Assembly (NCBI RefSeq): GCF_017094465.1
Contig: NZ_CP064791.1
Location: forward strand, 1,550,001 to 1,614,000
Length of the DNA: 64,000 nt
From: Halapricum desulfuricans
GTDB lineage: Archaea; Halobacteriota; Halobacteria; Halobacteriales; Haloarculaceae
Reading direction: 5' to 3'
Shown here: in pieces, positions 6,263 to 59,749 of the stretch
Position numbering within the stretch: position 1 is the first letter of the stretch
Layout: every line of letters starts with the position of its first letter
Notes under the pieces: model-generated
Database searches by the model: none
What the model saw: the letters and a program-made list of their open reading frames with translations, nothing else
What the model was told of the DNA's origin: nothing
Translations under genes and position numbers: made by a program

Positions 6263-6498
6263 ATCCCGCTATCGAGAGCTGAGCACCGCTGATGGTCATG
6301 ATCGATCGGTAGCCCACAGTAATTACAGATCGGCCTGAACTCCCTCTCAGAATCGATCGATGCCGTCGAGGCGCGTTCGAAGTCCGAACGGACTCTCTTC
6401 TCTGAGAGAGTCGTCTCAGATCTGTGGCTGTCGAATTCGAAGTCCTTAGAAGCTAATACCCGATTCGGATTGCCCCCTCGATGAGGGCTCATTTCAAA
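6263..6498. other. non-coding stretch between decayed gene and tRNA-Ala repeat
   Basis: No convincing gene. The part next to the decayed gene is homologous to the region upstream of the copy at 59750. A short palindrome (ACTCTCTTCTCTGAGAGAGT, 6394-6413) and an AT-richer patch near 6440-6470 are the only other features. Confidence 0.5.
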
Positions 6499-6520
6499 TG
6501 GACTCGCCGGGATTTGAACC
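6499..6520 (-). repeat. extra copy of the tRNA-Ala 3' end
   Basis: These 22 bp are identical to 6639-6660, the T-arm and acceptor 3' strand of tRNA-Ala. No D arm or anticodon arm accompanies them, so this is not a second tRNA. An inverted partial copy (6585-6599) and a conserved-loop hairpin (6543-6563) lie between the two. Confidence 0.85.
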
Positions 6521-6542
6521 AGAGGAAGACGTTCCGGGCGTG

Positions 6543-6563
6543 CGGCCTCACTGCGCTCGGCCG
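6543..6563 (-). repeat. conserved-loop hairpin downstream of tRNA-Ala
   Basis: Stem CGGCC/GGCCG around the minus-strand 11-nt loop GAGCGCAGTGA. One of at least seven hairpins in this window whose loops fit RARCGNAGYGA while the stems differ. Confidence 0.7.
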
Positions 6564-6638
6564 TTCCGGGCTGCGACTTCCAGGGGTTCAAATCCGGGCA
6601 TCGCCATTCGCTCTCTCGACACGGCCGTCGGTCGCTCA

Positions 6639-6710
6639 TGGACTCGCCGGGATTTGAACCCGGGGCCTCTCCCATGCCAAGGGAGTGATCTACCTCTGAT
6701 CTACGAGCCC
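6639..6710 (-). tRNA. tRNA-Ala (anticodon GGC)
   Basis: A full cloverleaf on the minus strand. Acceptor GGGCTCG pairs with CGAGTCC (one G-U), the anticodon stem CTCCC/GGGAG encloses loop TTGGCAT with anticodon GGC, and the T arm carries GGTTCAAATCC. Discriminator A; CCA is not encoded. It decodes GCC/GCU. Confidence 0.96.
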
Positions 6711-16846: not shown

Positions 16847-16907
16847 TGGCGTCCGATTCGCAACCCTTATTGTGGTATTCGCTCCAACGAGTAAGTGCAC
16901 AACGCAG

Positions 16908-16973
16908 TGCCGGTGTCCTGCTGAACGTAGTGAAGCAGGGCTCGCCAGACAAACGAAGTGAGTCTGCCGGTGT
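16908..16973 (+). repeat. two conserved-loop hairpins inserted at the tRNA-Thr 5' end, with 9-bp duplication
   Basis: TGCCGGTGT occurs at 16908-16916 and again at 16965-16973, where it forms the tRNA 5' end. Between them lie hairpin CCTGCT-loop-AGCAGG (16917-16939, loop GAACGTAGTGA) and hairpin CAGAC-loop-GTCTG (16946-16966, loop AAACGAAGTGA). A TTATTG box at 16867-16872 fits the first copy better than the real tRNA start. Confidence 0.7.
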
Positions 16974-17039
16974 AGCTCAGACTGGGAGAGCGATTCCTTC
17001 GTAAGGAATAGGCCGAGGGTTCAAATCCCTCCACCGGCT
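16966..17039 (+). tRNA. tRNA-Thr (anticodon CGT)
   Basis: Acceptor GCCGGTG/CACCGGC, D arm AGCTCAGACTGGGAGAGC, anticodon stem ATTCC/GGAAT with loop TTCGTAA (anticodon CGT) and T arm GAGGGTTCAAATCCCTC. Discriminator T, no encoded CCA. A T-run follows at 17041-17045. Confidence 0.95.
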
Positions 17040-17294
17040 CTTTTTGCGACGAGCGAACTCGCGAGTCGTGACCGTCTCTGCGTGAGATTAGAAACTACGG
17101 AGCGGGGATAGCGACCAAAGGTCAGGTAAATCACAGCCCACTCCACCGGCCCTGTCACCGGAAACCGAGACCGAAATACCACCGTCTAGCGTGTATCAGA
17201 CTATTCTTCGGCAGACATTGCCGGGTCTTGTCCGGCCGGAAATGCTGTGATTATAAATAATTCTAGCCAGATGTGAAGCACGAGAGCGCTCTGT

Positions 17295-36359: not shown

Positions 36360-36490
36360 CGGTTCACGGTTACACCGTTCGCCGACCGCGGCGCTTCGCG
36401 CCGCTCACCGCTCACCGCTCGTCTTCCGAGCCCTCGCTCGCTGCGCTCGCGAGGAGGGGGACAGCTCGATTTGTTGCGGCGAAGACGAGC
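36360..36490. repeat. hairpin-rich stretch with tRNA-Phe-like fragment
   Basis: It contains GCGGCG/CGCCGC at 36387-36403, a conserved-loop hairpin CCTCGC/GCGAGG (36432-36454) and GGGGGACAGCTCGAT (about 36456-36470). The last is identical to part of tRNA-Phe at 36797-36811. No gene. Confidence 0.6.
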
Positions 36491-36625
36491 ATACGGCGAG
36501 CGAAGCGAGCCGTTTCACTGCTGACGAGCGAAGCGAGTCAGCAGGTGTTTTTCCCCACGTTTTTGCAAGGAGTGGTTCCCGCAGCGAGCGGAGCGAGCGA
36601 GGAAACCCGACGCAGCAAAAAGTGG
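36491..36625 (-). repeat. structured intergenic module, copy A
   Basis: Read on the minus strand: CCACTTTTTGCTGCGTCGGG, a TTCC/GGGAA hairpin, CCACTCCTTGCAAAAACGTG, GGGAAAAACACC, hairpin CTGCTGAC/GTCAGCAG (36518-36544), GTGAAACGGC and hairpin ACGGC/GCCGT (36493-36513), ending GCCGTAT. The block order matches copies B and C. It follows the second tRNA-Phe 3' end after 2 bp. Confidence 0.7.
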
Positions 36626-36627
36626 TA

Positions 36628-36648
36628 TGCCGCCTCCCCGATTTGAAC
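36628..36648 (-). repeat. extra copy of the tRNA-Phe 3' end
   Basis: 21 bp identical to 36776-36796, the T-arm and acceptor 3' strand of tRNA-Phe, with no other tRNA parts. An inverted fragment TCAAATCGG (36700-36708) and a 9-bp-stem hairpin (36724-36768) lie between the copies. Confidence 0.85.
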
Positions 36649-36775
36649 CCGCCGAGACGGTCCTGCTCGCTCCGCTGCGCGGGCGTGCGACTCGTCTGCT
36701 CAAATCGGCTCGGATATGATTTCGCGGCCGACGGCTCACTCGCTACGCTCGTTCGCGTTGTCGGCCGCAGAAACA

Positions 36776-36849
36776 TGCCGCCTCCCCGATTTGAACGGGG
36801 GACAGCTCGATCTTCAGTCGAGTGCTCTCCCAGTCTGAGCTAAGGCGGC
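36776..36849 (-). tRNA. tRNA-Phe (anticodon GAA)
   Basis: Acceptor GCCGCCT/AGGCGGC, D arm AGCTCAGACTGGGAGAGC, anticodon stem CTCGA/TCGAG with loop CTGAAGA, T arm CCCCGTTCAAATCGGGG, discriminator A. CCA is not encoded. Confidence 0.96.
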
Positions 36850-59432: not shown

Positions 59433-59505
59433 GGGGTCGTGGGGTAGCTTGGTAACCTTCGGGCCTTGGGTGCCCGTACCCCCGGTTCAAATCCGGGCGA
59501 CCCCA
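59433..59505 (+). tRNA. tRNA-Pro (anticodon TGG)
   Basis: Acceptor GGGGTCG/CGACCCC, anticodon stem CGGGC/GCCCG with loop CTTGGGT (anticodon TGG), T arm CCCGGTTCAAATCCGGG, discriminator A, no encoded CCA. Confidence 0.96.
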
Positions 59506-59549
59506 CTGTGTTTTGCCGCGAGCAAGACCGCGAGCGGCAACGCTGTCTG

Positions 59550-59626
59550 TCGCCCGGATTTGAACGAGACTGAGGTTCTGCGAGCGAAGCGAGCAGGTTC
59601 TCAGGCGTGGTTCACAATCCGGGCGA
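59550..59626. repeat. large foldback carrying tRNA-Pro 3' sequence in both orientations
   Basis: The 5' arm TCGCCCGGATTTGAACG (59550-59566) is complementary to 59606-59626 (one inserted C in the 3' arm). At the tip lies the conserved-loop hairpin CTGC-GAGCGAAGCGA-GCAG (59578-59596), between CTGAG/CTCAG arms. Confidence 0.75.
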
Positions 59627-59631
59627 CCCCA
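59609..59631 (+). repeat. extra copy of the tRNA-Pro(TGG) 3' end
   Basis: It repeats the last 22 bp of the tRNA with one inserted C (GGTTCACAATCCGGGCGACC, then CCA). No anticodon arm, so it is a duplicated end, not a tRNA. Confidence 0.85.
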
Positions 59632-59749
59632 TTCTATATAAAAGTAAAGCAAGAATATCTGCCGGTTCTTTCGGCCGGCGAATTTGCGAGTTCTGCGGGG
59701 GCTACATTTCGTCCGAGCAGCAGCTGTGCCCCGCACTTGACCAGGGGGA

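Follow-up and report, generated by a model that had tools for sequence, protein, structure and literature searches.

Several families of short mobile repeats are relevant to the element described here. Rickettsia palindromic elements (RPEs), as summarized in PMC10969869, are rickettsial repeats of about 150 bp. They are short, dispersed and palindromic, fall into several families, and often lie in frame in protein genes, where they encode a peptide missing from homologues. The PATEs of Haloquadratum walsbyi lack a transposase, have palindromes near their ends and are of IS605-type origin, with no target duplication (PMC3119063). The small mobile repeats (SMRs) of Haloquadratum are 80–110 bp in length, with an unknown mover, a strong target preference and terminal inverted repeats; they leave their target unduplicated, and it is usually another mobile element (PMC3119063).

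The window analysed here, a stretch of 64,000 nucleotides from Halapricum desulfuricans, contains a 57-bp unit with two hairpins at the 5′ end of a tRNA-Thr gene (Table 1). The segment is probably one member of a dispersed set of non-autonomous palindromic elements in haloarchaea, inserted at the motif GGYGT. Like the PATEs, the unit is haloarchaeal and transposase-free, with palindromes near its ends. Like the SMRs, it is short and haloarchaeal and has a strong target preference. Unlike the PATEs, however, it leaves a direct repeat (9 bp here, compared to one copy in empty sites; GGCGTC is doubled in a hydantoinase B gene), and unlike the SMRs it duplicates its target core. MITEs are non-autonomous, short, multi-copy elements with a target duplication, and their terminal inverted repeats match those of a parent transposon. 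The unit has the non-autonomous nature, target-site duplication, short length and multiple copies in common with them, whereas its hairpins are internal and the repeats of MITEs are terminal.

Table 1. Features of the tRNA-Thr locus, in coordinates of the window
Feature	Position	Strand	Basis
TATA-like TTATTG of the tRNA-Thr promoter	16867–16872	+	Sequence; context kept in congeners
Upstream copy of the target duplication, TGCCGGTGT	16908–16916	+	Sequence; single copy in five congeners
Whole unit and downstream GGTGT	16910–16973	+	Match to family model R2
Hairpin P2: 6-bp stem CCTGCT/AGCAGG, tandem GA/GA, AC/GT pair, GNA triloop	16917–16939	+	Folding; covariation
Linker GCTCGC	16940–16945	+	Family alignment; consensus GCTCGG
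Hairpin P3: stem CAGAC/GTCTG, P2-type loop, last base is G1 of the tRNA	16946–16966	+	Folding; covariation
Downstream copy of the target duplication, TGCCGGTGT	16965–16973	+	tRNA positions −1 to 8
tRNA-Thr, anticodon CGU	16966–17039	+	ARAGORN; Rfam RF00005, 68.7 bits

The two copies of TGCCGGTGT are 57 bp apart, and the downstream one takes in position −1 together with bases 1–8 of the mature tRNA. An earlier note on this DNA had described the 9-bp repeat at the tRNA-Thr start, with two conserved-loop hairpins between the copies, and both features are borne out. In the genome there are 33 occurrences of the loop GAACGNAGTGA, compared to 3 of the reversed control pattern. By base shuffling, the chance of TGCCGGTGT within 160 bp upstream is about 0.001, and a chance repeat is ruled out by the empty sites (see below). 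At the gathering score, Rfam matched only tRNAs in the window, and not the 57-bp unit.

A single TGCCGGTGT/GCCGGTGT is present between the same flanks in all five of the other Halapricum genomes examined, which is the empty site that had been predicted for relatives. In four of them, the alignment of the flanks has query positions 1–217 and 266–341 adjoining with a 9-bp overlap; the fifth has a different base before GCCGGTGT. For example, a congener has ...gtgcacagcgcagt joined directly to GCCGGTGTAGCTCAG, whereas the window has ...gtgcacaacgcagtGCCGGTGT, the hairpins, and then GCCGGTGTAGCTCAG. The site is likewise empty in Halapricum sp. CBA1109 and in H. hydrolyticum, the closest named relative by the upstream methyltransferase (88% identical). 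As the flanks are kept, with a single copy, in all five congeners, a precise 57-bp insertion in the window, exactly at the tRNA 5′ end and with a 9-bp duplication as the earlier note had proposed, is well supported. The simplest reading would be that the unit was gained in the window's own lineage.

Hairpin P2 has the sequence CCTGCT-GAACGTAGTGA-AGCAGG, and hairpin P3 has the sequence CAGAC-AAACGAAGTGA-GTCTG. On folding, both loops are readable as a structure in which a tandem GA/GA step is followed by two base pairs and a GNA triloop. The architecture of the family is GGYGT, hairpin, GCTCG, hairpin, GGYGT. In most members the linker CGG has the CCG in the downstream copy as its partner; pairing with the upstream CCG was considered and rejected, as the downstream CCG is the better fit across the alignment.

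Covariation is observed in both stems. In 12 units from tRNA-Thr loci, changes on both sides are found in 12 of 14 pairs. The wider alignment contains 29 units, drawn from tRNA loci, intergenic DNA and genes, each exactly 64 nt and free of gaps. In this alignment, 96.4% of the cells pair, and double changes are found in 16 of 20 pairs. There are 113 covarying cells, compared to 27 in shuffles, and the score is reached by none of 500 shuffles, which ignore relatedness. The signal is destroyed when the partners are slid by 1–3 columns. Three features are invariant or nearly so in the 29 units: the GG.GT motif, the GA steps in the loops and the linker GCTCG. The resulting model, R2, matches the window with 81 bits and an E value of 2.2e-17 (cmsearch), the window sequence itself being among the 29 from which R2 was built.

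The covariance model derived from tRNA-Thr units has matches in 271 of 391 Halobacteria genomes (E ≤ 0.001). With the wider-set model and 150 candidates scored, at least 9 matches are found in the window's genome and at least 111–136 in each of three genus g5 genomes; some of the matches are larger two-hairpin repeats, and the counts therefore mix families and are not exact numbers of 57-bp units. Judged by these matches, the tRNA-Thr unit belongs to a family dispersed across the class, with protein genes among the sites that it enters. A tRNA-specific element is ruled out by the genic and intergenic copies, and a CRISPR-like array was rejected because the units, although conserved in structure, lack spacers. 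No earlier description of the unit, its loop or its peptide was found in the open-access literature searched. Within that literature, the scatter across most haloarchaea, the rows of units and the in-frame genic copies point to a previously undescribed miniature jumping element.

One of the larger repeats is located in the window at 36484–36630. It consists of CATACGG, two hairpins, TTTTTCCCCACGTTTTTGCAAGGAGTGG and a further hairpin, with an R2 match at 36485–36548, and copies akin to it are found at loci L006, L007, L013, L014, L017–L019, L024, L027 and L028. Several near-identical larger repeats in G242 (L182–L189) have a two-hairpin unit followed by GGTGGACTGAAAGGGCGAGG, and end in GGGCCGAGGGCTTTCG. 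At L033 and L068 (C1:221739 and C1:1288150), tRNA-Gly genes have a repeated GCCGGTG upstream with hairpins between the copies, a divergent relative of the 5′ unit.

In the hydantoinase B gene of G264 (Pfam PF02538), a 57-bp unit is located in frame and accounts for exactly 19 extra residues, which are absent from all 19 homologues compared. GGCGTC is present once in two Halapricum homologues, compared to twice in the gene with the insert. A CobW-type GTPase has two tandem units, also absent from 19 homologues. Both genes are probably still functional, as their open frames are intact. Further Pfam-domain open frames, for CbiC, a histidine kinase and a SnoaL-like protein, have units near their ends, and the frame of a GDSL-type hydrolase has the unit on its opposite strand. 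Stops in the usual coding (GV) frame occur in 5 of 29 units, compared to 12.3 expected, and they are rare on the reverse strand of these units as well. With a length equal to 19 codons and few stops in either reading, the unit can sit in genes. In this respect it is similar to the RPEs: it is palindromic and multi-copy, with two covarying hairpins, and its in-frame inserts in hydantoinase B and CobW are absent from homologues. It differs from them in being 57 bp and archaeal, in having two hairpins with GNA-type loops, and in that it targets and duplicates GGYGT, forms tandem rows and is found repeatedly at a single tRNA nucleotide.

The unit inserts at GGYGT in one orientation, with duplication of the core; it is stacked in tandem and makes recurrent use of one tRNA nucleotide. 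It comprises one target core GGYGT, P2, GCTCG and P3, joined to the next GGYGT, and the direct repeat of the core that it leaves ranges from 5 to 9 bp with the extent to which the flanks match. In the mechanism proposed here, the tRNA-Thr 5′ end (GCCGGTGT) would be a GGYGT-type site that was entered repeatedly in different lineages. Further sites of this kind would be the starts of tRNA-Gly (GCCGGTGG) and, in protein genes, the Gly-Val codon pair GGYGTC. A new unit could enter the restored core, giving rise to tandem rows. The mature tRNA sequence is untouched, and the insertion would be tolerated because RNase P removes the leader. Movement would take place as hairpin DNA, by a trans-acting enzyme. 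If this is correct, a class-wide miniature element of haloarchaea enters the starts of essential tRNAs as well as protein genes without destroying them, adding long structured leaders to the former and 19-residue inserts to the latter. It would be an archaeal counterpart of the RPEs, and its clean empty sites make the mode of insertion testable.

The same tRNA position is occupied in other genera. A set of 80 haloarchaeal loci was collected by the methyltransferase, and the tRNA-Thr gene lies downstream of it in most of them. Units begin at exactly the tRNA position seen in the window in Halorussus ruber, Haladaptatus sp. DYF46, three Halorientalis, a Halobacterium, Halosimplex salinum, Halostella pelagica and others, and the spacing is exactly 57 in eight tRNA-Thr units. 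Some loci have two tandem units; in H. pallida the two are different from each other, and hence there are three copies of GCCGGTGT. About 14 of 73 tRNA-Thr loci have the unit (15 of 73 by the scripted score, with L127 a likely chance match). On the methyltransferase tree, its presence in the 73 loci requires a minimum of about 12–13 changes (13 for the 15 scored positive) and is therefore nearly maximally scattered.

The identical nucleotide and the 57-nt length in many genera would also be expected if the unit had been ancestral before haloarchaeal tRNA-Thr and if slippage or recombination between its direct repeats had frequently removed it precisely. Direct repeats and hairpins favour precise deletion, and repeated slippage loss would look like repeated gain. 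We regard such a history as unlikely, however, since the unit is absent from all five congeners and occurs as lone presences amid absences in Halosimplex, Halorussus, Haladaptatus and Halapricum. Moreover, tandem units at one locus differ in their stems, and an independent insertion is seen in hydantoinase B.

With its C-G closing pair, the GNA triloop of the consensus is similar to DNA mini-hairpins of very high stability and would suit a single-stranded DNA intermediate. Folding energies of the unit as DNA and as RNA do not discriminate between structure at the DNA level and at the RNA level. It is conceivable, but quite unlikely, that the units are recombination sites of a haloarchaeal system acting on folded single-stranded DNA, joined at GGYGT. 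Such a system would be similar to a minimal integron, with tRNA ends as anchors and the core restored at each addition to produce tandem rows.

The promoter context CGATTCGCAACCCTTATT (TTATTG or TTATTT) is kept in the empty-site congeners. From the position of the promoter, transcription of tRNA-Thr would start at about 16892–16897, upstream of the insertion. The leader would then have grown from about 13 to about 70 nt with the promoter unchanged, and this structured leader of about 70 nt would be removed by RNase P. Unconstrained RNA folding prefers the upstream copy as the acceptor strand by 1.6 kcal/mol, a value that does no more than hint at a difficulty for RNase P, as the folding model ignores tertiary contacts and modifications and its preferred fold misses the D arm. 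A further question is how RNase P selects the correct 5′ end with an identical copy of the acceptor strand lying 57 nt upstream.

Strong covariation in the stems, the exact junction with the tRNA 5′ end and the single orientation would be consistent as well with a functional, structured 5′ RNA leader that controls the processing or expression of tRNA-Thr and was spread by interspecies recombination. Most species and all the congeners are without the unit, however, and it is also located in protein genes and intergenic DNA. The DNA hairpins of a mobile element would covary too. We consider a leader of this kind very doubtful.

A derivative of IS200/IS605, moved in the manner of PATEs by a Y1 transposase, is highly improbable. 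Haloarchaeal PATEs do have near-terminal palindromes, but neither they nor IS605 make a target duplication (PMC3119063), as the 57-bp unit does. The host Y1 transposase expected for a PATE was found in 16 of 23 copy-rich genomes and not in the other 7, which have 27–64 matches, and this makes the Y1 route unlikely and leaves an IS200/IS605 mover unsupported. A local accident, in which replication slippage produced the 9-bp repeat and hairpin tract at the tRNA-Thr locus alone, is hardly credible, for although short repeats beside palindromes are prone to slippage, the family alignment refutes it, with the 57-nt architecture recurring across genera and sites.

Repeats are also found at the 3′ ends of tRNA genes. 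About 20 of the 46 tRNA genes of the genome have a copy of their own 3′ end within about 75–150 bp downstream, and none of these genes has such a copy upstream. The copies are 12–24 nt long (mostly 21–24) and reach the discriminator base, and between gene and copy lie hairpins and an inverted copy of the T arm; examples in the window are at 6498–6710 (−), 36627–36849 (−) and 59433–59640 (+). A second unit sometimes begins after the 3′-end copy. A protein-gene parallel is found in G059 and G114 (L206, L207 and L227): downstream of an intact NAD-epimerase gene, the 3′ end of that gene is present a second time, and this duplicate holds a 57-bp unit. These copies were rejected as clean genic insertions, as they lie in the duplicated 3′ fragment downstream of the intact gene. 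In relatives, 19 of 72 tRNA-Thr genes have a 3′-end copy downstream. The tRNA-Thr of the window may have elements on both sides, as a decayed 3′ copy, CTCCACCGGC, is located at 17141–17150 (within 17029–17153). At L074, L087 and L134, a short AAAAAGGGTTCAAATCCTTCTTG, a partial copy of the T arm, directly follows tRNA-Thr.
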